Shown here piece after piece: positions 33,501-51,041 of a stretch of 61,754 bases of DNA. A program made the translations under genes and the position numbers. The DNA is taken from NCBI GenBank assembly GCA_023664045.1, contig JAMPGH010000002.1:1-61754 (forward strand). The letters are read 5' to 3'. Numbering within the stretch: the stretch's first letter is position 1; each line of letters begins with the position of its first letter. The stretch is from Alistipes senegalensis (GTDB lineage Bacteria > Bacteroidota > Bacteroidia > Bacteroidales > Rikenellaceae). The notes under the pieces were generated by a model. That model was not told where the DNA came from. It saw only the letters and a list, made by a program, of their open reading frames with translations, and made no database searches.

Positions 33501-36009
33501 GGCGCACAAACCGATGATTATCGGACTGAAAGCCAACGTCGCGGAGATCGCCGAGTGCTACCGCACGGCCTATCCGAACGCGAAGATTCTCTACGCCACG
33601 GAAAAAGACTTCACGCCCGCCAATCGCGTGCGTTTCTTCAACGACATCAAGAACAACGACTGGGATTGCGTCATTATGTCGCACGACCAATTCGGCAAGA
33701 TTCCCCAGTCGCCCGAATTGCAGCAACGGATTCTCCAAGCCGAGTTGGACACCGTAGAGGAGAATTTGGAGGTGCTGCGCAGGCAGGGAAAAGATATTTC
33801 GCGTGCGATGCTGCGGGGATTGGAGAAGCGCAAAATCAACTTGTCCGTCAAGTTGGAGAGCATCGCCCACGCCATCAAGTCGCGCACGGACGACGTGGTG
33901 GACTTCAAGCAGATGGGTATCGATCACATCTTCGTGGACGAGAGCCACCAATTCAAGAACCTGATGTTCAACACGCGCCACGACCGAGTAGCGGGGTTGG
34001 GCAATCAGGACGGCAGCCAAAAGGCGCTCAACATGCTCTATGCGATCCGCACCATACAAGAGCGCACGGGCAAGGATCTGGGTGCGACGTTTCTGTCGGG
34101 CACGACCATCAGCAACTCGCTGACGGAGCTATACCTGCTGTTCAAATACCTGCGGCCGAAAGAGCTGGAGCGGCAGAACATCAACTCGTTCGATGCGTGG
34201 GCGGCGATCTTCGCCAAGAAGACCACCGATTTCGAGTTTTCGGTAACGAACAACATCGTGCAGAAAGAACGCTTCCGCTACTTCATCAAAGTACCGGAGC
34301 TGGCGGCTTTCTACTCCGAGATTACCGACTACCGCACGGCGGAGGACGTAGGTGTGGATCGGCCGGAGAAGAACGAGATACTCCACAACATTCCGCCCAC
34401 ACCTCAACAAGAGGAGTTCATCGGCAAGCTGATGGAGTTCGCCAAGTCGGGCGACGCGACGCTGTTGGGACGCGGAAAGCTATCCGACACCGAAGAAAAA
34501 GCGAAGATGCTGATCGCGACGGACTACGCCCGCAAGATGGCGCTCGACATGCGTATGATCGACAACGACCTGTACGAAGACCACCCCGACAACAAGGCTT
34601 CCCACTGCGCGGCGACGATTGCGGAGTATTACCGCAAATACGACGTGCAGAAAGGGACGCAGTTCGTCTTCTCGGATTTGGGGACGTTTCAGCCGGGGCA
34701 ATGGAATGTGTATAGCGAAATCAAGCGCAAACTTGTGGAAGATTACGGCATACCTGCTTCGGAGATTCGCTTTATTCAGGAGTGCAAGACCGACAAGGCC
34801 CGCAAAGCGGTAATCGACGCGATGAACGAGGGCAAGGTGCGGGTGCTCTTCGGCTCGACATCGATGCTCGGCACGGGCGTGAACGCCCAACGGCGAGCCG
34901 TCGCGGTGCATCATCTCGATACGCCGTGGCGGCCCTCCGACCTTGCGCAGCGCGACGGTCGTGCCGTGCGCAAAGGCAACGAAATAGCCAAGCTGTATGC
35001 GGACAACAAGGTCGATGTCATCATCTATGCCGTCGAGAAATCGCTCGATAGCTACAAATTCAACCTGTTGCACTGCAAGCAGACGTTCATCTCGCAGCTC
35101 AAAAGCGGCGCGATGGGAGCGCGAACCATCGACGAAGGGGCGATGGACGAGAAATCGGGCATGAACTTCTCGGAGTACATGGCCATCTTATCCGGCAACA
35201 CGGACTTGCTCGACAAAGCGCGGTTGGAAAAGAAAGTGGCGGCGTTGGAGAGCGAACGCAAGTCGTTCCACAAGGCCAAAAGCAACTCCGTATGGAAATT
35301 GGAGGAGTACACCAAAACGCTTGCCTCCAACAACGAGTGCATCACCAAGATGTCGGCGGACTACGAGACGTTCCTCGCGCGGGTGCAAACCGACAAGGAG
35401 GGCAACAAGCTCAACGCCCTGCGGCTCGACGGGTTGGACGCCACCGACCACAAGAGTCTCGGCACGCGCCTACAAGAGCTTGCGAAGAACGCCGCGACGG
35501 GCGGCGAGTATCTGCGTATCGGCGAACTGTACGGATTTCCGGTTCTTGTCAAAACCGAATCGACCTTGAAAGAAGGTGTAGAGGTCAAGCAGAACCGTTT
35601 TTTCGTGGAGGGAGCCTACAAGTACACCTACAACAACGGGCAGATAGCGATGTCCGACACCAAAGCAGCGGCGATGAATTTTCTCAATGCTTTGGAACGT
35701 ATTCCCAAGCTCGTGGAGCAATACCGTGAAAAGAACGTCGAATACGAACGAGATATTCCGATTCTGCAAGCCACTGTCGGCGGCGAGTGGAAAAAGGAGG
35801 ACAAATTGAAGCAGTTGAAAACCGAAGTCGCGGCGCTGGAACGCAAGATTCAGTTGGAGTTGGCGCCGCCGAAGCCAGATATGCAAAAAAACGAAGAACC
35901 GATCGAGAAAGCAAATATTTCGCTGTCCACCAACGATTCCGGTCATTCCGTACGGTTCAGACAAGCAGGTGAAAACAATAATACTTTTTATAAAGGTTGT
36001 AAGATCTAA
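30574..36009 (+). CDS. Giant N6-adenine DNA methylase / SNF2-like helicase fusion
   Basis: 1811 residues. An N-terminal methyltransferase domain has the SAM-binding motif [15 protein letters not shown] near 129 and a catalytic motif VSNIPFGD near 194 (a variant of N-P-P-Y). A central region of no recognised fold holds low-complexity sequence (~400-520). The helicase has Walker [12 protein letters not shown] near 957, a VDESH box near 1120, and a superfamily 2 C-terminal domain with [20 protein letters not shown] and [12 protein letters not shown] coiled-coil tail follows. Such proteins are standard in CTnDOT-type ICEs and are thought to protect or remodel the incoming element. Some family members are longer; this one ends shortly after its coiled coil. 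Confidence 0.85.
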
Positions 36010-36182: not shown

Positions 36183-37847
36183 ATGATAAAAGAAAAGGCC
36201 GGACTGATATTATTGTTTTTGCTGGGTTGCGCGGGATGTGCAAAAGATGCTGCGCAGGTTACAGAACAACTACAAACGGCAGCATCGCTCATACAAGAAA
36301 GGCCGGATAGTGCATTATATATTCTGGAACACATCGATTCCGGCAATTTATCGTGTCGGAAAAACAAGGCCCAATACGCCCTGCTTTATTCGCAAGCGCT
36401 CGACAAGAACTATATTGATGAAACAAGCGATTCCTTGATCCGCATTGCCGTGAATTACTATCGGAATCACGGAAGCCCAAAAGACAAAATGCTCGCAAAC
36501 TATTATTTGGGGCGAATCCAGTTCAATGCGCATGATTATTCTCGATCTATCATCTCTCTTTTTCAAGCAAAAGAAGATGCCTCGGCGTTGCAGGACTATC
36601 TGTATGCAGGATTGATATGCAGAGGAATAGCGGACATTTACAATACAACGTTCAATTATTTCGAGGAACTGAATTATTTCGAACAGGCTTACGAATTTTT
36701 CAAAAAAGCGAATGCCGATCGACATGCGAATTATGCTTTGTTGAGCATCGGAGTAGCCTATAACAACCAACGTGAATTCAAAAAAAGCGAGGATATTTAC
36801 GAACGGGTATTAGACCTCGCCCGTAAGGATGCAGACACAATACTTTTGGAACAATGCTTGACAAGGTATGCCAATTTGTGTATGGCGACGGAGCAGCCCG
36901 GCAAGGCGAAACGAATGTTTCTTGCGGTACAAAACGAATTACAAATCGAGCTATCTCCTTCCGATCTCGGTAATTTGGCATGCGCCTATGCGCAAACCGG
37001 TCATGCAGACAGTGCAGCAGCATTGATTCGTTTGGCCAAGCGGCATATGCCTGATGATATTTTGGATCAAGCCAAAATAGTACTTCACGAATATCGCCTC
37101 CATGTTTACAATCGTAATTATCGCAATGCTCTTGCTTGTTACGAACAGGTTGTCGGCATTCAAGATTCCATTCTTCATAATGTATTGGACCAATCCGTAG
37201 TTGCCGCCCAACGCGATTTTTTTCAAAGGCAGTCGGACGATGAACGCCATAAACTGATCGTACACCGGCAATTCTCTGCAATGGCGATCGTTATCCTATT
37301 CCTTCTTATTGCATTCGGCATCTTCTATTTTTACAGACGTCTGCAAATCAAGAATCTGGAGATAAGCAAGTATATGAACATGGCTGCCGATATACGAACG
37401 TCGTTGCAAAACCGCAATATCGAAATGGCCGGAATGGCACAACTCACGCAGCAGCTATTCAAAGAAAAGTTCGAATTTATCGATAAACTCGGCAATACCT
37501 ATTACGAACGGCATAACACGCCCGCAGAACGGGAAGCTATTTACAATGAAGTAAAAAGAGAGATCGATAATTTGGGAACCGATAAAAAAACGATTGCAGA
37601 GCTGGAAAAGATCGTTAATTCGTGCAAATCCGGTATCATGCGGAAATTAAGAGAGGAATTGCCCACTTTGAAAGAAACCGATTTTCAACTTCTCTGTTAT
37701 TTCTATGCTGGTTTTTCTTTTCGGGCGATCAGTATCTTTACCAAAGATAAAATAGAAAATATTTACAATCGCAAATCGCGTTTGAGAGCAAAAATCGCAG
37801 CTTCGAATACCCCGAACAAGAACTTTTTCTTGGATGCAATGAGATAA
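36183..37847 (+). CDS. TPR-containing membrane regulator with C-terminal LuxR-like HTH
   Basis: 554 residues from the ATG at 36183, chosen for its signal/lipoprotein-like start (KAGLILLFLLGCAGC). Residues ~25-350 are tetratricopeptide-like helices (SIGVAYNNQREFKKSEDIYE, NLACAYAQTGHADSAAALIR). A membrane span follows at ~362-385 (MAIVILFLLIAFGIFYFY), then a cytoplasmic coiled coil and a C-terminal helix-turn-helix (LKETDFQLLCYFYAGFSFRA, NIYNRKSRLRAKI). The layout is a one-component sensor: periplasmic TPR domain reading a peptide or protein, cytoplasmic DNA-binding tail. Placed first in the cargo and co-directional with the peptide genes, it is the likely regulator. AT-rich codon use differs from the ICE backbone. 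Confidence 0.75.
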   Translation: MIKEKAGLILLFLLGCAGCAKDAAQVTEQLQTAASLIQERPDSALYILEHIDSGNLSCRKNKAQYALLYSQALDKNYIDETSDSLIRIAVNYYRNHGSPKDKMLANYYLGRIQFNAHDYSRSIISLFQAKEDASALQDYLYAGLICRGIADIYNTTFNYFEELNYFEQAYEFFKKANADRHANYALLSIGVAYNNQREFKKSEDIYERVLDLARKDADTILLEQCLTRYANLCMATEQPGKAKRMFLAVQNELQIELSPSDLGNLACAYAQTGHADSAAALIRLAKRHMPDDILDQAKIVLHEYRLHVYNRNYRNALACYEQVVGIQDSILHNVLDQSVVAAQRDFFQRQSDDERHKLIVHRQFSAMAIVILFLLIAFGIFYFYRRLQIKNLEISKYMNMAADIRTSLQNRNIEMAGMAQLTQQLFKEKFEFIDKLGNTYYERHNTPAEREAIYNEVKREIDNLGTDKKTIAELEKIVNSCKSGIMRKLREELPTLKETDFQLLCYFYAGFSFRAISIFTKDKIENIYNRKSRLRAKIAASNTPNKNFFLDAMR

Positions 37848-37875
37848 TTATATTATTATCAATACATTGTAAATA

Positions 37876-37884
37876 CCCCCCCCC
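37876..37884 (+). repeat. C9 homopolymer in the regulator/DUF3244 spacer
   Basis: Nine consecutive C in an otherwise AT-rich spacer, about 190 nt upstream of the small secreted protein. Confidence 0.8.
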
Positions 37885-37942
37885 GAATGAAATTTATATA
37901 TCGCTAATAATCAGCAACATACAAACGTGATATAATTTCAAT

Positions 37943-38000
37943 ATCTATCAAGATCGCAACTGACTAAAAATTAATCAGTTGATATTATCCCTTGATAGAT
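37943..38000. promoter_or_regulatory. Nested inverted repeat (58 nt)
   Basis: ATCTATCAAG (37943-37952) and CTTGATAGAT (37991-38000) are exact complements. Inside, CAACTGA (37957-37963) pairs with TCAGTTG (37975-37981). It is either a multi-site operator or a structured RNA. Confidence 0.55.
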
Positions 38001-38022
38001 TATTCCAGCCGATTTTTTAGGA

Positions 38023-38066
38023 TTTTGAGTTTGATCGATCGTAATTTTGTATCATCAAACTCAAAA
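38023..38066 (+). promoter_or_regulatory. Promoter inside a 13-bp perfect inverted repeat
   Basis: TTTTGAGTTTGAT (38023-38035) and ATCAAACTCAAAA (38054-38066) flank an 18-nt centre holding TAATTTTG (38042-38049), an exact -7 box. The right arm ends 3 nt before the ATG of the next gene. A regulator bound here would cover the polymerase site. Confidence 0.6.
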
Positions 38067-38069
38067 GCT

Positions 38070-38447
38070 ATGAAAAAAATTTTTCTTATCATTTTTGCTG
38101 TGATCTGCGGAATCGCGGCGATCTTTACGTGTCGCGCCGACGAACAAAAAACACGTTGCATTGAAATTCAAATCAAACAAGGGCCAGTCAAAGGTGCGCC
38201 TCGAAGCATTTCCATCATACCAGTAACGTGTTTTTATAATTCCGGCACCCTATCCTTGACCTTTATCGACGAGATCGGGAGCGTAACCGTCATTGTTTTC
38301 AATCAATCTACGGGTGAACAATGGATCGATTATATCGATGCGGACGATGGATACGCAACAATGCAAATATCCGAAGATGAAGGAGACTATGCTATCGAAA
38401 TAGTAACCGATACCGGAATCTGTTACAGCGGTTATTTCACGCTTTGA
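38070..38447 (+). CDS. Small secreted protein, DUF3244-like
   Basis: 125 residues from the ATG at 38070, which begins a clear signal peptide (MKKIFLIIFAVICGIAAIFT). The mature ~100 residues are predicted beta-rich (GTLSLTFIDEIGSVTVIVFN, DGYATMQISEDEGDYAIEIV), the pattern of DUF3244, a family of short secreted immunoglobulin-like Bacteroidota proteins of unknown function. Two Cys in the mature part could form a disulphide. Between the regulator and the peptide precursor, it could be an immunity protein, a sensor ligand or a cosecreted factor; nothing in the sequence decides. Confidence 0.65.
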   Translation: MKKIFLIIFAVICGIAAIFTCRADEQKTRCIEIQIKQGPVKGAPRSISIIPVTCFYNSGTLSLTFIDEIGSVTVIVFNQSTGEQWIDYIDADDGYATMQISEDEGDYAIEIVTDTGICYSGYFTL

Positions 38448-38604
38448 GAAATAAAACGAAGGTCGGGATTACGCGTTGATCCTGTATTTATAGCGGACTT
38501 GCCATCCTCTGTAAATAAAAAGCCCTCTTCCAAAAAGGAAATAGAGTAAAGTGGTGAGGCTCTATACTATTCACTAATTCGGAAAAAGGCTGACAAAGAT
38601 AGAT

Positions 38605-38632
38605 AATATTTGATTTATTACAAACAAATCAA
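38605..38632 (+). promoter_or_regulatory. Possible promoter and dyad of the precursor gene
   Basis: AATATTTG (one mismatch to TAnnTTTG) at 38605-38612 overlaps TTGATTT-N9-AAATCAA (38610-38632). The TTTGAT half-site resembles that in the dyad at 38023-38066. The leader to the precursor ATG would be about 80 nt. A weak TTCC-AAAAA-GGAA dyad near 38528-38540 precedes it; the rest of the spacer shows no gene. Confidence 0.35.
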
Positions 38633-38699
38633 TGCAGAACGCCCTATCTGTATAAATCAATGGGGGAAAGATAATTTCATAAACATAAAATCGTAAACC

Positions 38700-38882
38700 A
38701 TGAAAAGTAAACTTTCGATTAAAGACGTAACGGTAATCAAGGCTAACGATGCTTTTTCCAACGACGAAATGTCGAAGATTCTCGGCGGTAACGCCGAGAT
38801 GGGGTGCGTTTGCCGTTGTGGAACGAATACCGCAAGTATGGCGGCAGAGCATATAAAACACGACAAAGTCGAACGTCCGTAA
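38700..38882 (+). CDS. RiPP precursor peptide, double-glycine leader, CxCxC core
   Basis: 60 residues. The first 30 (MKSKLSIKDVTVIKANDAFS, then NDEMSKILGG) form a leader ending in Leu-Gly-Gly, the cleavage signal for C39 peptidase exporters and typical of the GG-Bacteroidales class of rSAM-modified precursors. The 30-residue core has three Cys at 36, 38 and 40 in GCVCRCG, then a Thr/Ser/Ala stretch and a His/Lys/Asp-rich C-terminus ending VERP. The adjoining radical SAM gene and C39 exporter support this reading. A hairpin follows within 20 nt, so the precursor can be made in excess. The actual modification is not known. Confidence 0.85.
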   Translation: MKSKLSIKDVTVIKANDAFSNDEMSKILGGNAEMGCVCRCGTNTASMAAEHIKHDKVERP

Positions 38883-38899
38883 CGTAATTTCCGCCAAGT

Positions 38900-38930
38900 C
38901 TACTCTCGTTGTTCTACGAGAGTAGGCTTT
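38900..38930 (+). terminator. Hairpin (terminator/attenuator) between precursor and maturase
   Basis: CTACTCTCGT, six-base loop, ACGAGAGTAG, then GCTTTT. It lies 17 nt after the precursor stop and 33 nt before the radical SAM start; partial read-through would give low maturase and high precursor levels. Confidence 0.75.
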
Positions 38931-38962
38931 TCACTAATTTATGAGACTTTATATGTATTAAT

Positions 38963-40297
38963 ATGAATGTCGTAATATCGAAATATACATATCAATGGAT
39001 CTCGACACGGGGAGATCATTTGATTTATTGCAGCAGGACAAACTCCTATCTTAAAGTAACACCCGAACTATATGAATTCATAAACGATTGTCGCGATAAC
39101 AGCGAATTGCTATCCGAAATAGATAGCGAATTGCTTGCAATATTGCAAAATCATAAAATCGTCGTATCCGAATACGATGACGACGATTACATTCTGGAAC
39201 GCCAATTCAAAGAAGATCAATGTACATTTTCGCCCTCTACGATAGGCCTCGTATTGGTTCCTACGACATCCTGTAATTTCGACTGCCCCTATTGTTTCGA
39301 AGAAGGTAAAAAGCCCAGCAATATGAGCGACGAAACAATCGAGGCTTTGATATCTTTTTTAAAACTTCATAAATTAGCGAAAAATATTGCACTCACGTGG
39401 TATGGCGGCGAGCCGTTGTTGGCATTTGGTACAATCAAAAAAATATTAAACAAAATAGAATCGGAAACCGGTTTACCGATCATCGACCAATCGATCATTA
39501 CCAATGGATATTATTTTTCCGATAACGTCATAGAATTTTTCAAGCAACATCCATTAAGCAATATCCAAATAACGTTAGACGGCAACAAAGCCCGACACGA
39601 CACTATTCGGAAGCAAAAAGGGACGGGAGTCGGCAGCTACGATCGGTTGATAAACAACATAGACAACATTCTTAACAAACTTCCGGATACGCAGGTTTCG
39701 ATTCGTGTAAATATCGACAAGGCCAATAAAGACGAGTTTTTTGACGTGCATGCTCGCCTCTCTGAAAAGTGGAGAAATAAAAAGATTAAAATTTATCCCG
39801 GCATATTGAGAATCGACAATGAGGCCAAAACCAATTTGGCGTGCAGCGTATTGAGCCAATCGGAAGCAATGGAGTTATATTACGATCTCCGGCAAAAGCA
39901 AATGATAGATGGTTCCATATACCCCACATTGCAACATCATGAAGGGTGCTGTGCCACGGTCGTTAATTCATACATTATCGGGCCTGACGGTGAAATATAC
40001 AAATGTTGGAATGACGTCAGCAATAACGACAGAATCGTAGGCAATATCCGAGAACAAAAGATTCGCAATACATCGTTATTTTACAGATATATCATTGCGT
40101 CCAAGACTTGTCGAAACAAAGCATGTTTGGACTGTTCGATGTTGCCGATATGTTCAGGCAGTTGCGCCTACTATCGATTACGAAACATATACGAGAAAGG
40201 AGAATATGCGCTGTGTCAATGTCTCCAAAAAGAGCCTGAGATGTTGGAAAAAAGCCTTGAATCGTATTATTACGACCATTATAGCAAATCAGAATGA
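38963..40297 (+). CDS. Radical SAM/SPASM peptide maturase
   Basis: 444 residues. An N-terminal ~90-residue region (GDHLIYCSRTNSYLKVTPEL) may bind the leader. The radical SAM 4Fe-4S motif is CNFDCPYC (Cys104, 108, 111), followed by WYGGEPLL and ITNGYYFSD. The C-terminal SPASM domain has Cys before GPDGEIYKC, then C-LD-C-SMLPI-C-SGS-C exactly (Cx2Cx5Cx3C) and a final CQC, so two auxiliary clusters are expected. Relatives form thioether or C-C crosslinks in Cys-containing precursors; with a three-Cys core thioether formation is plausible but unproven. The stop overlaps the next start (ATGA). Confidence 0.92.
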   Translation: MNVVISKYTYQWISTRGDHLIYCSRTNSYLKVTPELYEFINDCRDNSELLSEIDSELLAILQNHKIVVSEYDDDDYILERQFKEDQCTFSPSTIGLVLVPTTSCNFDCPYCFEEGKKPSNMSDETIEALISFLKLHKLAKNIALTWYGGEPLLAFGTIKKILNKIESETGLPIIDQSIITNGYYFSDNVIEFFKQHPLSNIQITLDGNKARHDTIRKQKGTGVGSYDRLINNIDNILNKLPDTQVSIRVNIDKANKDEFFDVHARLSEKWRNKKIKIYPGILRIDNEAKTNLACSVLSQSEAMELYYDLRQKQMIDGSIYPTLQHHEGCCATVVNSYIIGPDGEIYKCWNDVSNNDRIVGNIREQKIRNTSLFYRYIIASKTCRNKACLDCSMLPICSGSCAYYRLRNIYEKGEYALCQCLQKEPEMLEKSLESYYYDHYSKSE

Positions 40298-42672
40298 CCA
40301 GACTTGTCGTCGCGATGAAGAGACTCATTTCGTTTGTCCTTTTCGGGGGATTTTGTTTGTTGCCGCTATGCTCTTTCGGGCAAGTTTCCGGCAATAGCAT
40401 CTGCGGACGGGTCGTCAGCAACGACCGGCCGGTGGACTATTTTTGCGTAACCTTGTCGTCTCCGACCGATTCGCTTTTTCTGGCGGGCGGTGCTTTCGAG
40501 AACGGCGAATTCCGTTTTTCCGGATTGGAGTTGAATAGCTACGATGTCGAAATTTCCTCTTTGGGATATGTCCCGATCCGGAGAAGGGTTCATATAGACC
40601 ACGGGACATTCGATTTCGGCACTTTGAACCTCCTGGAAGATGCCCGGCAAATCGACGCGGTTGCCGTCGTCGCTGCCCGGCAACTATTCAAGCAGGATAA
40701 AGGATTGCTTACGGTGAATGTGGGCGGTACGATGCTCGAAAATGCAGGCTCGTTGTTCGATGTGCTCCAGAGAAGTCCGGGAGTGATCGTAGATCGGAAC
40801 GAACAAATCAAGGTCTTCGGCAAAGGCGAGCCGGTAATTTATATCGACAATCGGGAAATCGTATCCCTCGAAGAGCTGAACGCGCTGCAATCGACCGACA
40901 TAGACCGCATCGAAATTGACCGCAACCCCTCCTCGAAATATTCGGCGGCAGGACATGCCATCCTGCGGATACGCACCAAACGAAGCCGCACGGACAATTT
41001 CTCGGTCGCAGTGTACGACCGGATTACCGTCGGTCGCAAAATCAGCAACAGCGTCGGCGCGCAATTCAACAACAACAAGAACCGCTGGGCCAATCTGTTG
41101 AGTTACGCTTACGAATACGCCGACAAACTGGATTACAACAAGTCTTACGAATTCAACACCCAACCGACCTGCGTGATCGAAAATTTCGGCGACATCTCGA
41201 ACCTCTATCATCACGGACGGCACACGCTTTTTTCCGGAAACGAATACCGCATCAGCGACAGAAGCCTAATCGGATTGCAGTTCAACGGTTATTGGCAGAA
41301 CAACGACAGCGACCGGCAACAGATCCAGCAGATCAGAAAAAGCGGCGAAGCGGAGATCGACAAACTGATCTTGCTGCGCGAATTCGGCAACAGCAGCCTG
41401 TATAACACGAATGTCAGCTATCAACTCAATCCGGACTCGACCTCCAACCGGCTGGAGGTCGTGCTCGGATACGCCTATACGAGCAATGCTACGGACATCG
41501 ATACCGACGAAAAACGGCTGCCGGCTTTTCCGAGCCTACTCTATGAAATCAACAGCCGAAGCGCTTTCAGCGTATATTCCGCCACGGCGGATTATCAGTT
41601 CCGGTTTCTGAAGTTTTTGGATGTGGGCGTAGGAGCCAAATATTCGTATGTGCACAACGACGGAAGCAGCCGGCAATTCGATTTGGAGTCGGGCCATACG
41701 CTCTATGCCCAGCAAAGCCGAATCAACGATAAGATAGCGGCCGGCTATCTGCAAATCAAAAAGAAGACCGGCAAATTCGATCTTTCAGCAGGGTTGAGAT
41801 ACGAGCATACGGCCTCCGAAACGACTGTGGATGCCGCACTCATAGACACGACCTACAACAGCTTTTTTCCGAGTTTTCGGGCAAATTATGCTCCCAACGA
41901 CAACCTCGATTTCAGTTTGTCGTACTCGAAGCGGATCGTCCGTCCGGGATTCAAACAGATCAACCCCAACATCATCTACCTCGATTCCCTCTCCTACGGG
42001 GTCGGCAACCCTCTTTTGACGCCGGTTTACATAAACAACGTCGAACTGAATGTCTCGATCCACGATTTTACGCTCATCGCCGGATATACGCACAAACGGA
42101 ATCACATCATCGAAACGGCCGAAAACGATCCGGCGAATCCGGATATCACCCGATGGTCTTACCGGAACCTGCCTCGGAGCCAAAGCGTGCTTTTGGGCGG
42201 AATTTACTCCAAACGGTGGGGATTCTACGCCCTAAATGCCGAGGCTTATATCGAGAAACCTTTCGTGTCTGTGCTTTATCTGGACGAAATCATCAAACGG
42301 AATAAGCCGCTCTGGATGTTTTCCGTCTCCAACAGTTTCACGTTACGCAAGAATCTGTCGCTGTATTGCGCCTTCGAGTACCAGAGCGAAGGCGATGACG
42401 GCATAACGAGGTGCGGAGAGTCCTGCAATCTGTCCGCCGCCCTTATCTGGCGGCTCTTGCGGGATCGGCTGCGGTTGAGTCTGAGCGCGAACGACCTGCT
42501 GGGAACCGTCAACGGCAACACGTGGGAAGACCGCCACAACAACATCGTTACGGGCATGAAATCGCGGCAGGACAGCCGATATGTCCGGTTCGAAGTGCGA
42601 TTCCATTTCAACAACACGCAAAGCGGCGTCAAGAACAGGGCTAACAACAGCGATGAACTGAATCGCATGTAG
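40294..42672 (+). CDS. TonB-receptor-like outer-membrane beta-barrel protein of the RiPP system
   Basis: 792 residues; another ATG at 40315 (MKRLISFVLFGGFC) starts the signal peptide more naturally. Mature N-terminus: carboxypeptidase-regulatory-like domain (ICGRVVSNDRPVDYFCVTLS), a plug (GSLFDVLQRSPGVIVDRNEQ, PVIYIDNREI), then an OMP_b-brl_3-type barrel (SFFPSFRANYAPNDNLDFSL). This belongs to the outer membrane beta-barrel family rather than SusC. It overlaps the maturase gene by 4 nt, so it is part of the peptide pathway. It may carry the peptide across the outer membrane or take up a cognate ligand. No TolC-like channel is present in the cluster. Confidence 0.85.
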   Translation: MTRLVVAMKRLISFVLFGGFCLLPLCSFGQVSGNSICGRVVSNDRPVDYFCVTLSSPTDSLFLAGGAFENGEFRFSGLELNSYDVEISSLGYVPIRRRVHIDHGTFDFGTLNLLEDARQIDAVAVVAARQLFKQDKGLLTVNVGGTMLENAGSLFDVLQRSPGVIVDRNEQIKVFGKGEPVIYIDNREIVSLEELNALQSTDIDRIEIDRNPSSKYSAAGHAILRIRTKRSRTDNFSVAVYDRITVGRKISNSVGAQFNNNKNRWANLLSYAYEYADKLDYNKSYEFNTQPTCVIENFGDISNLYHHGRHTLFSGNEYRISDRSLIGLQFNGYWQNNDSDRQQIQQIRKSGEAEIDKLILLREFGNSSLYNTNVSYQLNPDSTSNRLEVVLGYAYTSNATDIDTDEKRLPAFPSLLYEINSRSAFSVYSATADYQFRFLKFLDVGVGAKYSYVHNDGSSRQFDLESGHTLYAQQSRINDKIAAGYLQIKKKTGKFDLSAGLRYEHTASETTVDAALIDTTYNSFFPSFRANYAPNDNLDFSLSYSKRIVRPGFKQINPNIIYLDSLSYGVGNPLLTPVYINNVELNVSIHDFTLIAGYTHKRNHIIETAENDPANPDITRWSYRNLPRSQSVLLGGIYSKRWGFYALNAEAYIEKPFVSVLYLDEIIKRNKPLWMFSVSNSFTLRKNLSLYCAFEYQSEGDDGITRCGESCNLSAALIWRLLRDRLRLSLSANDLLGTVNGNTWEDRHNNIVTGMKSRQDSRYVRFEVRFHFNNTQSGVKNRANNSDELNRM

Positions 42673-42787
42673 CCAACAAGCGACCGACAAAGGCCCTCCC
42701 GCAATCGAAGCAGCCGATTTAATGACTTCACCCGGAACAGAGCATTTCAGAATGGCAGGATAGCAAACGCTCCGAAATAAATATAAT

Positions 42788-44998
42788 ATGCGATTCCCTT
42801 TTTTTATTCAACCTGATGCAATGGGCTGCGGCTCGTGTTGCTTGAAAATGATCGCCTCTTATTACGGGCGCGACTATTCATTGGACAAACTTCAGAAGCG
42901 CACTTTTACGAGCATCGACGGTGTTTCGTTGCAGAATATAGCATCGGCGGCCGAAAAACTGGGATTCAAAACTGTCGGAGGGCTGGTTACGTTCGAGACA
43001 TTGGCAACGACGGCCGTATTGCCCTGTATCGTTCATTGGAATCAGAATCATTTCGTAGTCGTTCACAAAGTAAAAAAGCATAAAAAGAACACGACTATCC
43101 ATGTCGCCGATCCCGGATGCGGACTGGTAGCCTATACGAAAGAGGAATTCCTGACCCACTGGCTCAGTACATCCCGAAACGGAGAAGAAAAGGGCGTCGC
43201 TCTTTTTATGGAACCGACCGTGCGTTTCTATGAGCAGCAAGGCGACGAACAAATGCCGAAAGGATTGGGAAAAATCCATTTCCTTTATCGATATTTTATT
43301 CGCTATAAACAATTCTTCGGGCAACTTTCCATCGGACTGCTCGTCGGTTGTGGATTGCAGTTGCTGTTCCCGTTCTTGACGCAGTCGATCGTCGATGTCG
43401 GTATTTCCGGACGGGACATTCCGTTCGTTTGGCTGATTCTAATGGCGCAGGCGATGCTTTTGCTGGGTCAGGCAAGCATCGATTTCATTCGCCGCCGGAT
43501 TCTGCTGCACATCAGCACGCGAATCAATATTTCATTGATCTCCGATTTTCTTATCAAACTGATGCGTTTGCCGATGAAGTTCTTCGACACGAAGCAGCTC
43601 GGCGATCTGCTGCAACGCATCGAGGATCATCGACGCGTGCAGGATTTTCTTACGGCGCAAACCCTGAATGTTCTGTTTTCCGTATTTACATTCGTGATCT
43701 TCGGCGCCGTACTCTGTATTTACAACATGAAGATATTTTTGGTCTTTTTGGTCGGCAGTATTCTTTACGGAATCTGGATTCTGTTTTTTCTTCGGCGACG
43801 ACGGATTCTGGACTACAAATACTTCGAGCAGCAGGCACGAGACCGGAATTCCACCTATCAACTCATTACCGGCATGCAAGAAATCAAGTTGCAAAACTAC
43901 GAGCTGCAAAAACGCTGGGAATGGGAGGACATTCAAGCCGACAAATTCGATGTGAACCTTCAATCCTTGTCGTTGACCCAAACACAGGATGCCGGAAGCA
44001 TCCTGATCAACGAGGGTAAAAATATCCTGATTACGGCCATGACAGCGATCGCTGTGATCGACGGCAATATGACTTTGGGCATGATGCTGGCCGTACAATA
44101 CATTATCGGACAACTGAACACTCCGGTCGAACAGTTGATGAATTTCGTCTACCAATGGCAGGATGTAAGCATCAGTCTGGATCGAATGAATGAAATTCAT
44201 GAACGGAAAGAGGAAGAGAATACCGATCGGACGATCGCTTCTTTCGTACAAAATGCAGAGAAGACGATACGCATCGAGAACCTTTCATTCCAGTATAACG
44301 GCAGCAATTCGCCGATGGTTCTCAAAAATATCGATCTTGTGATCCCTGAGGGAAAAACGACCGCCATCGTCGGAGCAAGCGGCAGCGGCAAGACCACGCT
44401 TGTCAAATTGCTGTTAGGTTACTATGAACCGACACAGGGAGAAATTTCGGTCGCCGGACAATCTTTGCAGCATTTCAATCTCTCTTGGTGGCGAGCACAA
44501 TGTGGAGCCGTCATGCAGGACGGCTATATTTTCTCGGAGTCGATAGCGAAAAATATCGCCACTTCCGATGAAAAGATCGATTTGGAAAAGTTGCGTTATG
44601 CTGCGGAAGTCGCCAATATTCATGAATATATCGAACGCCTCCCGCTGAAATACAACACCCAAATCGGGCAGGACGGACAAGGGCTGAGTCAAGGGCAGAA
44701 ACAGCGTATCCTGATTGCACGAGCCGTGTATAAGAATCCGCAATTCATCTTTTTCGATGAAGCGACCAATGCACTCGATGCAAACAACGAGCGACGAATT
44801 ATCGATAATTTGGAGCGATTCTACGAAGGAAAGACCGTGATTATCGTTGCCCATCGTTTGAGTACCGTGAAGAATGCGGACAATATCGTCGTGCTTCATA
44901 ACGGCGCGATCGCAGAACAAGGAACGCATGCAGAACTTACGTCCGAACACGGCATGTATTATCATCTGGTGAAAAATCAACTTGAACTGGGCAACTGA
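42788..44998 (+). CDS. Peptidase-containing ABC exporter (C39 leader peptidase)
   Basis: 736 residues. The N-terminal C39 domain (1-~150) has Gln8, catalytic Cys14 in MGCGSC, His88 in NHFVVVH and Asp108 in HVADPG, so it should cut the precursor after its Gly-Gly. The membrane domain (~165-460) has six spans. The nucleotide-binding domain has Walker A GASGSGKTTL near 530, signature LSQGQKQR near 633, Walker B FIFFDEA near 652 and a His switch (IIVAHRLS). It exports the trimmed, modified peptide across the inner membrane. A 115-nt spacer separates it from the barrel gene with no visible terminator. Confidence 0.93.
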   Translation: MRFPFFIQPDAMGCGSCCLKMIASYYGRDYSLDKLQKRTFTSIDGVSLQNIASAAEKLGFKTVGGLVTFETLATTAVLPCIVHWNQNHFVVVHKVKKHKKNTTIHVADPGCGLVAYTKEEFLTHWLSTSRNGEEKGVALFMEPTVRFYEQQGDEQMPKGLGKIHFLYRYFIRYKQFFGQLSIGLLVGCGLQLLFPFLTQSIVDVGISGRDIPFVWLILMAQAMLLLGQASIDFIRRRILLHISTRINISLISDFLIKLMRLPMKFFDTKQLGDLLQRIEDHRRVQDFLTAQTLNVLFSVFTFVIFGAVLCIYNMKIFLVFLVGSILYGIWILFFLRRRRILDYKYFEQQARDRNSTYQLITGMQEIKLQNYELQKRWEWEDIQADKFDVNLQSLSLTQTQDAGSILINEGKNILITAMTAIAVIDGNMTLGMMLAVQYIIGQLNTPVEQLMNFVYQWQDVSISLDRMNEIHERKEEENTDRTIASFVQNAEKTIRIENLSFQYNGSNSPMVLKNIDLVIPEGKTTAIVGASGSGKTTLVKLLLGYYEPTQGEISVAGQSLQHFNLSWWRAQCGAVMQDGYIFSESIAKNIATSDEKIDLEKLRYAAEVANIHEYIERLPLKYNTQIGQDGQGLSQGQKQRILIARAVYKNPQFIFFDEATNALDANNERRIIDNLERFYEGKTVIIVAHRLSTVKNADNIVVLHNGAIAEQGTHAELTSEHGMYYHLVKNQLELGN

Positions 44999-44999
44999 T

Positions 45000-45470
45000 A
45001 TGGAAGAACGGAAAGATATAGAACTGCGTAGTGAAAAGGTGCGGAGCATTATCGGAAAGATGCCATCTCTTCTCCTTCGTATGGGGATTTCCATAATTGC
45101 AGGAGTTATACTCGTCGTTTTAGGACTGCTGTATTGTATCCCCTACCCGCAAACGATCACCGTTCCGGTGAGCATCGATCATTACAAAGAAGATTCGACC
45201 AACCACGCTATGGCGCATATTCCCCTGCAAGAAGCTCGTCCCATCCAAATCGAACAAGATGCGACGATAACCATTCAAAGCCTGCAAGGCAATTACAACG
45301 TATATGGACAGGTGCATGAACTGGTGGAAAAGAACGGATTTGTCGATATCGATATTCTCCTGACAGATACCGCGTCCCGTTCCGAACATTTGAGCACCCG
45401 CCCTACGGGCATGGCGACAATTCATATTTCGAGAAAGCCGATTTTAAAGAGAATCATCAAAAAATCATGA
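45000..45470 (+). CDS. Very short HlyD-like membrane fusion protein
   Basis: 156 residues from the ATG 2 nt past the exporter stop. A cytoplasmic N-terminus, one membrane span (~27-48, MGISIIAGVILVVLGLLYCI), then PYPQTITVPVSID and a beta-rich C-terminus (QDATITIQSLQGNYNVYGQV, GMATIHISRKPILKRIIKK) like the membrane-proximal barrel of HlyD adaptors. The usual lipoyl and coiled-coil hairpin regions, normally 150-250 residues, are absent and the frame is intact. Either a minimal adaptor specific to this system or an internally deleted one. Confidence 0.65.
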   Translation: MEERKDIELRSEKVRSIIGKMPSLLLRMGISIIAGVILVVLGLLYCIPYPQTITVPVSIDHYKEDSTNHAMAHIPLQEARPIQIEQDATITIQSLQGNYNVYGQVHELVEKNGFVDIDILLTDTASRSEHLSTRPTGMATIHISRKPILKRIIKKS

Positions 45471-45634: not shown

Positions 45635-46204
45635 ATGGCATATCATATTACGGCGGAAGCACTATTTTGCTGTATAACAGAGGGAATTACGGCTCACGAC
45701 AACCGATTAGCGAAATTTACGGAACTATTGCATGATCTGTACGATACGAGTACGAACGCCATCGAATTGTTTCGTATTTTGAATCATACGCGTATTCAAT
45801 TATTGCATCGTCCTCCCGCAATCGCCGATCATATCGACCGTTTGTTGAAAGTCGCTATCGGCTATATCGACACCGAATTGGATTTACTCGCACGTTACGG
45901 CAACCGGAATATCCCTCATGAGACACGTTTTCGCTGGACGGGCAGTCTTGTAGAATTGGTCGAGGTCATTTACGCACTCGACGAATTGCATTGCATTAAC
46001 GACGGCGAAGTGTCTATCAACGAGTTGTTCATGTTCTTCGGAAGATCGTTCGGTATGGATATGAAAGAAAGCTACTGTTACAATGCTTATGCAGATATGA
46101 AACGTCGCAAGAATGACAGTCGCACCTACTTTCTCGATAAGATGCGTGAGCGGCTGAATCTGCGGATGCAGCGCGACGACGAAAAGGAACGGATGCGCAA
46201 ATAA
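45635..46204 (+). CDS. rteC: RteC-family regulator
   Basis: 189 residues. The C-terminal two thirds (FRWTGSLVELVEVIYALDEL, FGMDMKESYCYNAYADMKRR, KNDSRTYFLDKMRERLNLRM) match RteC, the CTnDOT regulator whose winged-helix domain binds the excision-operon promoter. The protein is slightly shorter than the usual ~215 residues at its N-terminus. rteA/rteB, which normally precede it, are absent here: the cargo lies directly upstream. The 164-nt spacer before it has no recognised gene. Confidence 0.85.
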   Translation: MAYHITAEALFCCITEGITAHDNRLAKFTELLHDLYDTSTNAIELFRILNHTRIQLLHRPPAIADHIDRLLKVAIGYIDTELDLLARYGNRNIPHETRFRWTGSLVELVEVIYALDELHCINDGEVSINELFMFFGRSFGMDMKESYCYNAYADMKRRKNDSRTYFLDKMRERLNLRMQRDDEKERMRK

Positions 46205-46274: not shown

Positions 46275-47333
46275 ATGGGAAAAGAGACCGCCATATCGTT
46301 ATGCAGCGGGGATTTCATTCATGAAATCAAGCAGATCGTCGTCCAAGCCCGCCAAAAGGCATACACCGCCATCAACTCGGCGATGGTCGAGGCTTATTGG
46401 CTGATGGGCAAGCGCATCGTAGAGCAGGAGCAGCAGGGGAAAGACCGTGCCGACTACGGTTCGCAGTTGTTGAAATCACTATCGAAAGAACTTACGGCAG
46501 AGTTCGGCAAAGGGTTTTCAGTCAATTCGCTGTACTACTTTCGCCAGTTTTATCTTGCTTTTTCTGAAAAACTCCCCACAGCGTGGGGAATTTTGACATG
46601 GTCGCATTACAAGCGTCTGTTGAGCGTGTCGAATGCCGATGCCCGCGCATGGTATCTGAAAGAGGCGGCCGAGCAAATGTGGAGCTACCGCACGCTCGAC
46701 CGCAATATCGGTTCGCAGTATTACGAGCGATTGTTGCTTTCCCAACATAACGATGCGGTCAAATCCGAAATGGAGGCTCTGACCGCTCCGTTCGAGCGCG
46801 ATCGCATGGAGTTCATCAAGAATCCGACCGTCGCCGAGTTCATCGGTCTTGCGCCCAACAGCGACTTCACGGAATCGGACTTGGAAAGCGCCATTATCGG
46901 CAACCTGCAAAAGTTCCTGCTCGAACTGGGCAAAGGTTTCTCGTTCGTGGCACGACAGAAATTGATTCGCACCGAGAAGAAAGACTACTTCATCGACCTG
47001 GTATTCTACAACTATATTCTCAAATCGTTCGTACTGATCGACCTTAAAACGACGACCATCACGCACCAAGATGTCGGACAAATGGATATGTATGTGCGGA
47101 TGTATGACGAGCGGGTACGCGGCGAGGGCGACAACCCCACTATCGGCATCGTGCTCTGCTCGGAGACGGACGAAGATATTGCCCGCTACTCGGTTCTACA
47201 TGACAACGACCGCCTGTTCGCCTCGAAATACATGCTCTATATGCCGACCGAAAAAGAACTACGAGAGGAAATCGAACGACAAAAGGAGTTCTATCGATTG
47301 CAGCACGAAACGAACGAATTGCAAAAACAATAA
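46275..47333 (+). CDS. DUF1016 / PDDEXK nuclease-like protein (YhcG family)
   Basis: 352 residues. N-terminal DUF1016 domain (VQARQKAYTAINSAMVEAYW, MGKRIVEQEQQGKDRADYGS, SVNSLYYFRQFYLAF, TWSHYKRLLSV) and a C-terminal PD-(D/E)XK-like domain: KDYFIDLVFYN, then SFVLIDLKTTTITHQDVGQM supplying Asp and Lys. Such proteins are presumed nucleases of mobile elements, sometimes tied to restriction or defence; the target is unknown. It has its own -7 box and terminators on both sides, so it looks like an independent cargo gene. Confidence 0.88.
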   Translation: MGKETAISLCSGDFIHEIKQIVVQARQKAYTAINSAMVEAYWLMGKRIVEQEQQGKDRADYGSQLLKSLSKELTAEFGKGFSVNSLYYFRQFYLAFSEKLPTAWGILTWSHYKRLLSVSNADARAWYLKEAAEQMWSYRTLDRNIGSQYYERLLLSQHNDAVKSEMEALTAPFERDRMEFIKNPTVAEFIGLAPNSDFTESDLESAIIGNLQKFLLELGKGFSFVARQKLIRTEKKDYFIDLVFYNYILKSFVLIDLKTTTITHQDVGQMDMYVRMYDERVRGEGDNPTIGIVLCSETDEDIARYSVLHDNDRLFASKYMLYMPTEKELREEIERQKEFYRLQHETNELQKQ

Positions 47334-47371: not shown

Positions 47372-49378
47372 TTAGTTCTGCTGCAACAGGTGCGCCAGCG
47401 CCGGATCATTCTTAATGCGTTCCAATTCGTCGGCAACGATTTGCCGCACGTCGGCTTTGATGCGGTTGTAGTTCTCTTGAATCTGCTCTTTCATGCGGTC
47501 GTTCCCCTCCTCGTCCGTGAAATCGGTAATGACAGGTATGGGTTTATAGGCTCGCTCCTCCCGTCTTACTTTCTCCGCATCGACGACGATTTCGGCATGG
47601 AAAATCTTCTGCTCGATTCGCTCGGTGAAATTGTCCGACACCGCCCCGACGAACATGCCCTGTGTGAGCGTCGAGATTTTCGACTGCGGGATAAGGCTGT
47701 CCATCTGCGTCGATATGGAGGTGGAGGTGTCGTTACGGTTGATCGAAATGGACTGCCGACGCTGCAAGACTTTACCGAAGCGTTCCGATAGCGTCTTGGC
47801 CGTTTCTCCGACCACCTGACCAGAGAAGATATTGCCGACGGTGTTCATTACGACTTTGGCCTCCTTGTCGCCGTAGTCGCGCACAAGCTGTGAGAAATCC
47901 TGAAAGCCCAGACATACGGCGACCTTGTTGCTTCGGGCCGTCGCAATCAAATTATCCAACCCTTTGAAATAGATCGTCGGCAGTTCGTCGATGATAACCG
48001 ACGACTTCAACATCCCTTTCTTGTTGATGAGCTTCACGATACGCGAGTTATACAAACCGAGCGCTGCGCCGTAGATGTTCTGTCGGTCGGGATTGTTGCC
48101 CACGCCGAGGATTTTCGGCTCTTCGGGATTGTTGATGTCCAGCGTAAACTCGCTGTCGGACATCACCCAGTAGAGCTGGGGCGAAATCATGCGCGAAAGC
48201 GGTATCTTGGCCGATGCAATTTGGCCCTGCAGCTGCTCCGCCGCCCCTCCGAGCCAAGCATCCATAAAGGGCGAGAGGTAGTTTTCGAGTTCGGGATAGG
48301 AAGTTAGTATCGGGAAAATATCCTCGTAGCGGCGATTCAGGAACTCAACGGCGTGCGGGAACGTGCAATACTTCCCGTTCCGGTAGATTTTGAGATACCA
48401 AATAATCGCAGCAAAGAGGATGATGGGCGATTCGACGAAGAAATCGCCCTGCTTCTGCACCCACGTTCTATTGAGATTGAGCATGATGGTGTAGGCACTC
48501 TCGTAGGCGTCGGTAATATCCTCCATGAAGTCGGGATGTATGGGATTGCAACGATGCGAACGGCGAGGGTCGTCGAAATTTATCACGTAGAATTTCGGTT
48601 TTACCTCGTACCCGTCCAAGTGGTTCAGCAGGTGATTGTAGGCAATGGTCGAGAGGTCGGGAAACTTGAAATCGTAGATATACATGGCAAACCCTTTCTC
48701 GATCTGCTGCTTGATGAACTGATTGACGACAGCATAGCTCTTTCCGCTGCCCGGCGTGCCTAACACGATTGCTGCACGGAACGGGTTCACAACGTTGATC
48801 CAACCGTCGTTCCATCGCTTGCGGTAGTAGAAGCGTGTAGGCAGATTCACGGAGTATTCATTGGTCAAGAGGCGCGTTTCCTGCTGGAACGATTCGTTCT
48901 CGTTGTTGAACACGTCGTCCATCAGGTTGTCTTTCAACAACCGGCTCGCCCACAATCCGGCCATCAGCAGACAAATGTACCCTGCGGTCGTCGTTACGAC
49001 GTAGAGCGACGTCATCGCCATAAGCGGGAGCGGCAGGTCGAGCAACCACCCATTCATGAAATAGAGCACCGCCCCGACCGCAAATGCCGTCCAGATATGC
49101 GGCCACGCGATCTTCTCGTTCTTCACGCCTTTGGTTCCGAGGCACGACAAACCGAGCAGCACGACGGCAAAAAGTTTCGTATATAGCATCGAATGGAACA
49201 AATGCGCCGTACGGTCGAAGTTCAGCAGGATTCTGTCGACCGTACCGATATTCACACCCCATGCGAGGATCGCTTCATAGCAATACCAATAGACGTGCAT
49301 CACGACCAATAATATACTTACGGCTCGCAGAAAATCCATGATTTTCGCCAATGCCCTCAAATCATCTTCTTGTTGCAT
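47372..49378 (-). CDS. mobC: Type IV coupling protein (Bacteroidota MobC, TraG/VirD4-like)
   Basis: 668 residues. Four N-terminal membrane spans (e.g. SILLVVMHVYWYCYEAILAW, SLYVVTTTAGYICLLMAGLW), then a RecA-like ATPase with Walker A VLGTPGSGKSYAV near 206, Walker B SSVIIDELPTIYFKG and a TraM-recognition/AAD-like C-terminal part. The hexamer links the relaxase-DNA complex to the mating channel. It is the last gene of the leftward mobA-mobB-mobC group, 5 nt after mobB. Confidence 0.92.
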   Translation of the reverse strand: MQQEDDLRALAKIMDFLRAVSILLVVMHVYWYCYEAILAWGVNIGTVDRILLNFDRTAHLFHSMLYTKLFAVVLLGLSCLGTKGVKNEKIAWPHIWTAFAVGAVLYFMNGWLLDLPLPLMAMTSLYVVTTTAGYICLLMAGLWASRLLKDNLMDDVFNNENESFQQETRLLTNEYSVNLPTRFYYRKRWNDGWINVVNPFRAAIVLGTPGSGKSYAVVNQFIKQQIEKGFAMYIYDFKFPDLSTIAYNHLLNHLDGYEVKPKFYVINFDDPRRSHRCNPIHPDFMEDITDAYESAYTIMLNLNRTWVQKQGDFFVESPIILFAAIIWYLKIYRNGKYCTFPHAVEFLNRRYEDIFPILTSYPELENYLSPFMDAWLGGAAEQLQGQIASAKIPLSRMISPQLYWVMSDSEFTLDINNPEEPKILGVGNNPDRQNIYGAALGLYNSRIVKLINKKGMLKSSVIIDELPTIYFKGLDNLIATARSNKVAVCLGFQDFSQLVRDYGDKEAKVVMNTVGNIFSGQVVGETAKTLSERFGKVLQRRQSISINRNDTSTSISTQMDSLIPQSKISTLTQGMFVGAVSDNFTERIEQKIFHAEIVVDAEKVRREERAYKPIPVITDFTDEEGNDRMKEQIQENYNRIKADVRQIVADELERIKNDPALAHLLQQN

Positions 49379-49383: not shown

Positions 49384-50631
49384 TTAAACTTTTCGATTTC
49401 TTTTCTTCTTCTTTTTTCGCCGCTGCATTTCACGCATGAAGGCCTCCTCCTCGGCATCCGTCCCTTGCGTATCGGCAGAGAACAGTCCCAGCCCGCCGTC
49501 CGTCGTGTTATCGTAGAAGGTCGATTGCGTCGGCGTGTTTTCTGTGCTCGATTGTAGCGAGAGGACAATCGGGAGCGGTATGCCTGCCGCCGGAGGTGCG
49601 AAGTGCTCCTGCAAGGCATTCGCAGAAAGCTCCTTACCCAGACGAGAGCCGTTCAGCACACATCCCGTACGGTGGTCGATGAACGTTGCACCGTAGATAC
49701 GCCCCGTGTCTGTCTCACGCAATACGACGTCCACGCCTTTGGCTTTCATCAAGTCGATAAACTCCGCGCAGTCTTTCGTTCGGCGCAGGGCAGCCATCGC
49801 CGTCGCTTTGGTCATGTCGCCGAGCTTCCTTGTTTTGATCTGCTCCTTGCTTACGGCGCACCACTGCTCGAACGCCTCGTAGCCGTACCGCTTACCGAAA
49901 CGGGAGGCTTTGAATGGTATACCGACCTTGTTGCCTCGGTCGTCGATTGCGGAATAGACGAAGCCGCGATACTCCCTGCCATACGCTTCGCCTCGGCACT
50001 CCTCGACGGTAAGGCGATAGAGCGAGAGCAGTGCGCGGTACTCTCCGAGCGTCTGGAAACGGTATTTACCCGATATGCCTTTCAATACGTTGCCGATCTG
50101 CCGTTTCACGTCGCCGGCCGCTGCATCCACCGCGCGGAGCGGTTCGGTCTGCGTCTGCCGCTTATGCTCGGCGGGATGCAGATTGTATTTGCGCTCCAAA
50201 TCATTCGTAATCCTTTTGCTTCTTCGATGCAAAAAATCCTTATTCAACCGCTTGCCGTTTTCTCCGACATTTATGGAGATGATATGCAAGTGGTGGCGGT
50301 CGATGTCCTCGTGTTTGAACACGGCATAGGGCTGGTCGCCGTAACCGAGCCGTGCGAGATACTCCTCGGCGATGACCGTCAGTTCCGTGTCGGTCAAGCG
50401 GTCGTCGGGATGCGGGTTGAGCGAAACATGAATAACCGTATTCCGTGTGCGAGTCCGTTCGGGCAAGTAACGAGCGAAGTCCTCCGCCGCTTGACGGATG
50501 TCGAGACACCCTGTCCCGTCGTCGAAGATTTTATGCGTGGCGAGCAGTCGTCCCTGTCCCTCGTTGATCTTCTCGCCGTTATAGGCCAACGCCCCGTAAA
50601 GGGAGCGACCTACGTTAATTTTGGCAACCAT
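49384..50631 (-). CDS. mobB: Relaxase / mobilisation nuclease (MobB)
   Basis: 415 residues. N-terminal relaxase domain with a likely nicking Tyr near residues 12-17 (GRSLYGALAYNGEK), NTVIHVSLNPHPDD, and the three-His metal motif KHEDIDRHHLHIISINV. The C-terminal half is helical and ends in a basic tail (RRKKKKKRNRK). It nicks oriT and leads the strand into the recipient. Its start overlaps the end of mobA by 22 nt. Confidence 0.92.
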   Translation of the reverse strand: MVAKINVGRSLYGALAYNGEKINEGQGRLLATHKIFDDGTGCLDIRQAAEDFARYLPERTRTRNTVIHVSLNPHPDDRLTDTELTVIAEEYLARLGYGDQPYAVFKHEDIDRHHLHIISINVGENGKRLNKDFLHRRSKRITNDLERKYNLHPAEHKRQTQTEPLRAVDAAAGDVKRQIGNVLKGISGKYRFQTLGEYRALLSLYRLTVEECRGEAYGREYRGFVYSAIDDRGNKVGIPFKASRFGKRYGYEAFEQWCAVSKEQIKTRKLGDMTKATAMAALRRTKDCAEFIDLMKAKGVDVVLRETDTGRIYGATFIDHRTGCVLNGSRLGKELSANALQEHFAPPAAGIPLPIVLSLQSSTENTPTQSTFYDNTTDGGLGLFSADTQGTDAEEEAFMREMQRRKKKKKRNRKV

Positions 50632-51041
50632 TGTTGTTGAAATTCATGGGTTAAGTCGAGGATTCGGCGGCTCAAAGCGACGAGTTCAACGGTCTGCTTT
50701 CCCAATCTGTAAAGTAAAGCCATCGCCTTCTTCTCCGAAAAACGGCTTTTCAACTCTTTCACGGTCTGGTTGTAATTGACGCCGACGGCGCGGAATTGAG
50801 CGTGCAAGGAAGCGAGTTTCGTGTAATAATCGAGCAATGTTTTGTCGACTTTCAGTACGCGAAACTCGGCATCGAAGACGCGGGCTTTGATGAAAACCGC
50901 CTTCGCATAGACACCCGACTGCTCGTACATAGTGAGGAACCGAACGTATTCCTTGTCCGTAAAACGCACCATCACCTGGTGGCTGGCCTTGTCGGATTTG
51001 GGCGGGCGACCGCCGACGCTTGTTTTTCCTTTGCTCATCAT
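50610..51041 (-). CDS. mobA: Relaxosome accessory protein (MobA)
   Basis: 143 residues, starting KGKTSVGGRPPKSDKASHQ, then a ribbon-helix-helix-like segment (VMVRFTDKEYVRFLTMYEQS) and a helical C-terminus with FRAVGVNYNQTVKELKS, the signature of MobC/MobA relaxosome proteins. It binds near oriT and helps the relaxase open DNA. The CCACTAAATCCAC-like motif abuts its start codon (51045-51058, minus). Confidence 0.88.
   Translation of the reverse strand: MMSKGKTSVGGRPPKSDKASHQVMVRFTDKEYVRFLTMYEQSGVYAKAVFIKARVFDAEFRVLKVDKTLLDYYTKLASLHAQFRAVGVNYNQTVKELKSRFSEKKAMALLYRLGKQTVELVALSRRILDLTHEFQQQWLPKLT

Follow-up and report, generated by a model that had tools for sequence, protein, structure and literature searches.

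A predicted radical-SAM peptide cassette as cargo of a CTnDOT-related conjugative element in Alistipes senegalensis

What brings genes for a modified, exported peptide to the place in a conjugative element where related elements carry tetracycline resistance? The question is raised by a 61,754-nucleotide stretch of Alistipes senegalensis DNA (Rikenellaceae; assembly GCA_023664045.1, contig JAMPGH010000002.1, positions 1 to 61,754 of the forward strand), referred to here as the window. An initial annotation, made from the letters alone, described seven consecutive rightward genes at 36183-45470 as a peptide pathway carried by a CTnDOT-type element. Judged from sequence, these genes are a radical S-adenosylmethionine (SAM) cassette for a ribosomally synthesized and post-translationally modified peptide (RiPP), lying inside a conjugative element. 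The full explanation, that of a mobile, thioether-forming, C39-exported RiPP cassette in a variable slot, is probable. The kind of system is known; its variant features are the precursor type, a maturase outside the curated families, a mini-adaptor and its presence as alternative cargo in the tetQ slot.

A peptide cassette in a variable cargo slot

All seven open reading frames (ORFs) are intact on the plus strand, with no frameshift or interruption, and Pfam confirms the main domains (TPR, DUF3244, Radical_SAM, OMP_b-brl_3, and Peptidase_C39 with ABC). Their immediate neighbors are a methylase-helicase before and RteC after (Table 1), the location originally proposed. The cassette is probably functional. 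Its G+C content (36010-45634) is 45.0%, versus 55.7% and 54.9% in two parts of the element backbone and 59.4% in the chromosome to the left, and only 2 of the family's 268 genomes, one of them the window's own, have the maturase at E<=1e-60. These figures, together with transposase-like genes within the exporter gene of one related cargo copy in genome G212 (judged by eye), would suit a silent passenger, intact but unexpressed or functionless; however, the seven ORFs are unbroken and the cluster ligands and leader features have been kept, and this explanation seems improbable.

A search of the slot with the methylase-helicase end yielded 27 places in 20 of the 268 family genomes. Cargo was readable at 14 of the 27, window included; the count excludes G066, whose match lies at the end of its contig, and 12 matches that are short or diverged. 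In eight of the 14 slots, tetQ is present with rteA, or at least its beginning, behind it (G144:C4, G017, G221, G004:C5, G202, G152, G013 and G180; rteA is broken off at the contig end after 57 residues in G144:C4 and 80 in G152). Radical SAM and C39 genes occupy three more (the window and two places in G212), and the last three have other cargo (G144:C3, G172 and G225; contents mostly judged by eye). The cassette therefore occupies the usual tetQ-rteA-rteB place. A tetratricopeptide repeat (TPR) regulator comes first after the helicase in four of the six slots without tetQ. The G212 cargo comprises a TPR protein, a DUF3244-like protein (21.6 bits, cut-off 25), a TIGR04148 maturase (473 bits, cut-off 300), a short TIGR04150 pseudo-radical-SAM protein, and LanC-like and HlyD proteins; on this gene content it is a different RiPP type in the same slot, with no precursor identified there. 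The peptide systems thus look like swappable cargo.

Several neighboring observations concern the same slot. Cargo of the TIGR04148/LanC type is present twice behind the helicase in G212:C1 (L059/L062 and L063), and in one copy the exporter gene is broken by the transposase-like genes mentioned above. The G144:C3 slot (L054 15167-19991, L055 2-1480) has a TPR regulator followed by subtilase-like, membrane and oxidoreductase-like genes, with no peptide system (partly by eye). Contig G004:C98 (L061) is not among the 14 slots. Next to traG and integrase fragments it has genes for a TPR protein, DUF3244 (25.3 bits), a double-glycine (GG) peptide and a related maturase (34%), the last two separated by an S41 peptidase gene (2042-3484), and it also shows the beginning of a C39 exporter gene.

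RteC was also surveyed in a 393-genome sample of the order, which located it 20 times in 17 genomes, counting the window; 18 of the 19 other places were examined, the one left out (G537) being at a contig start. The helicase lies upstream in the same direction at eight of these 18, all with rteA-rteB between and seven also with tetQ. Neither maturase nor exporter was found at E<=1e-5 in those eight slots, and the cargo swap has therefore so far been seen only in the window's family.

The element itself is conjugative and CTnDOT-related by its gene content, and it may move between strains. The initial label of CTnDOT type holds for TraJ and TraM, TraG, the relaxase and RteC, all of which are present; it fits less well in that the visible part has no tetQ, rteA or rteB and RteC is only about 35% identical to that of tetQ elements. 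By tblastn, tetQ and rteB gave nothing in the window; for rteA, the hit falls in a sensor gene to the left of the element, at 12.4-13.5 kb. Genome G144 provides the empty site: window positions 21750-22816 (78%) and 22958-23140 (93%) match it and homology ends at 23140, a left end that puts 36-45 kb inside the element. A related element elsewhere in G144, after tRNA-Ala, matches the window at 23109-35879 (in pieces) and 45848-48680 at 80-87%, the cassette being excluded. The empty site and the same G144 backbone with other cargo rule out a chromosomal island, and gene sets with radical SAM and C39 members are not always chromosomal, as they are present in other such elements. The right end lies beyond the contig, which stops at 61754. 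A plasmid- or phage-borne cassette was likewise rejected: plasmids gave no near match, and phages a single 9% match, to the DUF1016 gene. Distant maturase relatives occur in 117 plasmid records, all below 60% identity; in viral contigs the single maturase query found no relative and the alignment query five (25-32% identity). A precursor search of plasmids found nothing.

Precursor, maturase and the Cys+6 pattern

The precursor leader ends in Gly-Gly and the core carries C36, C38 and C40, as in the double-glycine precursor with three cysteines first described, and this GG leader shares a cluster with a C39 peptidase-ABC protein. Its sole plausible family match is TIGR04149 (GG_sam_targ_CFB; 19 bits, E 0.00099, below the 25-bit cut-off). 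A GG peptide with cysteines lies just upstream at most maturase loci. The motif applied to the maturase was CX3CX2C with seven SPASM cysteines (CX9-15GX4C...CX2CX5CX3C...C), which we take to mark radical SAM/SPASM enzymes; C104, C108 and C111, together with C329, C348, C388, C391, C397, C401 and C418, are invariant in 25 sequences. Among the matches listed, no NCBIfam equivalog cut-off is passed, the best being TIGR04463 at 195.6 of 525 bits, and TIGR04148 (GG_samocin_CFB) is absent from the best 25 of 62 listed families. The N-terminal domain, resembling a RiPP recognition element (RRE), is predicted to consist of strands and helices. The best structural match of the model, with the best Z, is the thioether-forming CteB (21% identity in the structural alignment), the predicted alignment spanning model residues 6-439 (399 residues) and thus including the N-terminal region. 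CteB contains an RRE (PMC8326336; this and the other articles given by PMC number are cited from the part of their text available).

The five closest precursor cores share the motif CxCxC[GK]xN[ST]. Across 18 CxC-type cores, 56 of 67 Cys+6 positions are Asn, Ser or Thr, compared with at most 35 in 2000 shuffles. The same count is 13 of 15 in the five closest cores and 24 of 31 at eight other CxC loci, neither being reached in 5000 shuffles, and 40 of 50 when one core is taken from each of 14 loci (shuffle maximum 28). All 52 cores together give 95 of 214, more than every one of 2000 shuffles, a signal carried by the CxC group. This suggests Cys-X5 thioethers, from Cys to the Asn, Ser or Thr at +6, in CxC-type precursors; joined at a beta or gamma carbon, such bonds would define a ranthipeptide. 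A CX5 link is chemically reasonable, if still a prediction, because Asn, Thr and Asp are among the residues that accept thioethers in known peptides (PMC8939145, PMC8326336) and PapB tolerates 0-6 residues between Cys and Asp (PMC9413430).

Several points weigh against this. The CxC group was chosen after the pattern had been seen, the precursor sequences counted are related to each other, and secondary peaks arise at +4 and +8 from the regular spacing of Cys and Asn in the cores. No Cys+6 bias is seen in the 34 cores that do not belong to the group (39 of 147, reached by 1976 of 2000 shuffles); the pattern is therefore limited to the CxC type, and a rule for the entire maturase family is ruled out. 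The same cassette could instead install another modification, such as alpha-carbon thioethers (as in a sactipeptide), epimerization, a cyclopropane, carbon-carbon links, or a bond from Cys to the invariant Asn43. The lack of bias in those 34 cores fits this alternative, as does an Asn that all five closest cores share outside the +6 register, and the fold neighbors anSME, ChlB and TigE have scores close to or not far below that of CteB. On the other hand, the closest precursors are Cys-rich with a regular spacing from Cys to Asn, Ser or Thr, and CteB has the best Z and also covers the N-terminal region; another modification is possible, with a somewhat less than even chance. The thioether reading is preferred: given the predicted fold and conserved cluster ligands of the maturase, we infer the linkage from the precursor family.

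Export, regulation and related clusters

The maturase stop and barrel start overlap in an ATGA at 40294-40297 (a second possible barrel start is at 40315), and the adaptor starts one base past the exporter stop; these arrangements suggest translational coupling of maturase with barrel and of exporter with adaptor. The last gene had been called HlyD-like, a link drawn from 39% identity across 43 N-terminal residues with the 422-residue HlyD of a relative, although the protein has no Pfam or NCBIfam match. It appears too short for the HlyD hairpin and lipoyl parts. Both in the window and at 8 of the 15 other C39 exporters with a readable 3' side (six more were unreadable), the next protein has 67-221 residues, the motif RSEK[VI][RK] and a membrane helix. 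Proteins of this ELRSEKVR mini-adaptor family lie beside C39 exporters in the window and in L007, L008, L010, L012, L016, L017, L020 and L023.

The seven-gene layout, initially thought unfamiliar, is not unique. In L012, L016, L017 and L023 (all Bacteroidales), the precursor gene is followed in turn by those for maturase, barrel, C39 exporter and mini-adaptor, and L017 also has a DUF3244 gene ahead (40.7 bits). Hallella L007 has a TPR gene (7310-8908), a DUF3244 gene (9077; 29.8 bits), two GG peptides, a maturase and a barrel in the window's order, with a 195-residue C39 peptidase-only ORF after the barrel and a full C39 exporter and mini-adaptor just upstream of the TPR gene. DUF3244 is also present in L083 (29.3 bits), and look-alikes in L019, L021, L029 and L084 do not pass Pfam.

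The model of the TPR protein (pLDDT 82.3 overall) comprises a helical array, a long helix over the membrane segment and four C-terminal helices, which may bind DNA; comparison with solved structures gave weak TPR matches only for this protein and no useful relative for the DUF3244 protein. The two-box Bacteroides promoter pattern has matches on the minus strand only, sigma-70-like sites are at chance level (17 versus 18.2), and terminator-like sites number 18 versus 11.3.

Elsewhere in the window, the chromosome left of the element (9-22927) is a polysaccharide-use region with a SusC/SusD-like pair, a hybrid two-component sensor and glycosyl hydrolase/esterase-like genes (by eye). A 48-nt repeat has three copies in the element (26232-26279, 51335-51382 and 53078-53125; 75% and 92% identical to the reference copy) and is possibly an element-specific control site.

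Table 1. Positions of the cassette genes and of other features in the window
Feature	Positions	Strand	Basis or remark
TPR membrane regulator	36183..37847	+	lipobox-like signal (by eye), TPR array, one membrane helix, putative helix-turn-helix-like C-terminal helices
TAATTTTG, match to a Bacteroides -7 box	38042..38049	+	20 nt ahead of DUF3244 start; may be chance
Small secreted DUF3244 protein	38070..38447	+	Pfam DUF3244, 28.4 bits (cut-off 25)
Precursor, whole ORF	38700..38882	+
Precursor leader, residues 1-30, Gly-Gly end	38700..38789	+	ORF translation, NCBIfam comparison
Precursor core, 30 residues, CxCxC, with stop codon	38790..38882	+	core comparison
RRE-radical SAM-SPASM maturase	38963..40297	+	Pfam Radical_SAM, conserved Cys, structural alignment
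Outer-membrane beta-barrel protein, regulatory-like N-terminal domain	40294..42672	+	OMP_b-brl_3; overlaps maturase stop
C39-peptidase ABC exporter (PCAT)	42788..44998	+	Peptidase_C39 and ABC (Pfam)
Single-pass mini-adaptor, ELRSEKVR motif	45000..45470	+	motif/membrane-helix comparison beside C39 exporters
tRNA-Ser(gct), attachment site, left boundary of element	23046..23137	+	homology to empty site stops at 23140
Tyrosine integrase	23340..24683	+	ORF from 23340; start matching G144 relative near 23451
Topoisomerase-like backbone protein (named by eye)	27898..29985	+	80% identical in G144
Methylase-helicase, left flank of cargo slot	30574..36009	+	comparison with relatives
RteC-family protein, right flank of cargo slot	45635..46204	+	Pfam
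DUF1016/YhcG PDDEXK protein, backbone	46275..47333	+	Pfam, comparison with relatives
TraG-type coupling protein	47372..49378	-
Relaxase	49384..50631	-
MobC-like protein	50610..51041	-
Transfer genes, including P-loop TraG, CTnDOT TraJ and TraM	53738..61202	+

Proposed action and relation to known systems

In the proposed mechanism, the TPR protein would sense an extracytoplasmic signal, possibly with the DUF3244 protein, and control the cassette genes. The 30-residue leader would bind the maturase at its RRE-like domain, and the radical SAM and SPASM clusters of the enzyme would link the CxCxC cysteines to Ser or Thr (Asn in the cousins) six positions on. The C39 exporter would then cleave behind Gly-Gly and export the 30-residue product, which the mini-adaptor and the coupled barrel may take across the envelope. 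Comparison with relatives places the whole in the slot that holds tetQ-rteA-rteB in related elements. The most likely role of the peptide is in interactions between bacteria, as an antagonist or a signal. Alternatively, it might be no antagonist but a signal for adjusting the element or its host (quorum-like transfer control): the cassette opens with a regulator and sits where rteA-rteB, the usual controllers, sit in related elements, no immunity gene was recognized in it, and one review places SCIFF peptides under quorum sensing in a table (PMC8326336). The same TPR/DUF3244 head is nevertheless found in L007 outside any recognized element, and is thus not element-specific; this version is unlikely, if worth keeping in mind.

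Among described systems, the GG-Bacteroidales clusters (TIGR04149/TIGR04148/TIGR04150; B. uniformis cluster, PMC4573289) share the double-glycine precursor, radical SAM enzyme, C39-type exporter, adaptor and Bacteroidales host, whereas the window's precursor falls below TIGR04149, its maturase is not TIGR04148, pseudo-radical-SAM and LanC proteins are lacking, a coupled barrel is added and the mini-adaptor replaces HlyD. Bacteroidales RiPP clusters BGC1-9 (PMC10352776) share PCAT and GG precursors, an outer-membrane protein and, in some, TPR; no ELRSEKVR adaptor is described in the available part of that article, in which BGC6-9 have PCAT and outer-membrane protein with no adaptor found. Many radical SAM RiPP areas in Bacteroidales are counted there and not tied to conjugative elements, the word "conjugative" having no occurrence in the text available. 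SCIFF/CteB and PapB ranthipeptide maturases share the RRE-radical SAM-SPASM architecture and a Cys-rich precursor, but for these the reported links join Cys to a Thr 2 or 5 residues away or follow CX3D (PMC8326336, PMC9413430), versus the predicted CX5[N/S/T] here. CTnDOT/ERL-type transposons share methylase-helicase, RteC, TraG, TraJ, TraM and relaxase; the window differs in its visible part without tetQ-rteA-rteB, its insertion at a tRNA 3' end and its diverged RteC. ICERanRCAD0133-1 of Riemerella (PMC6491836) is conjugative and encodes TonB receptors and two C39 "bacteriocin" transporters; its "arylsulfatase regulator" may, on our own reading, be a SPASM maturase. It belongs to a different element family and host and is not presented as a RiPP cluster in the text available. 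Among the titles and abstract openings listed for conjugative-element RiPPs in Bacteroidales, none describes the present system.

A bolder version appears doubtful, and less likely still than the signal alternative: that a Bacteroidales element lineage swapped tetQ-rteA-rteB for exchangeable TPR/DUF3244-led peptide cassettes and spreads by arming or signaling with its host, that the window's new RiPP type is an interlocked Cys-X5-Asn/Ser/Thr thioether ladder, and that an ELRSEKVR anchor of 67-221 residues is all that remains of the membrane-fusion protein of the C39 transporter. For this maturase group, the Cys+6 pattern offers a precise and cheap mass-spectrometry prediction, and the mini-adaptor family could provide the adaptor that section 3.2 of PMC10352776 reports as missing from clusters with PCAT and outer-membrane protein. 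If peptide cassettes recur in the tetracycline-resistance slot, resistance vehicles would also spread peptide weapons or signals.
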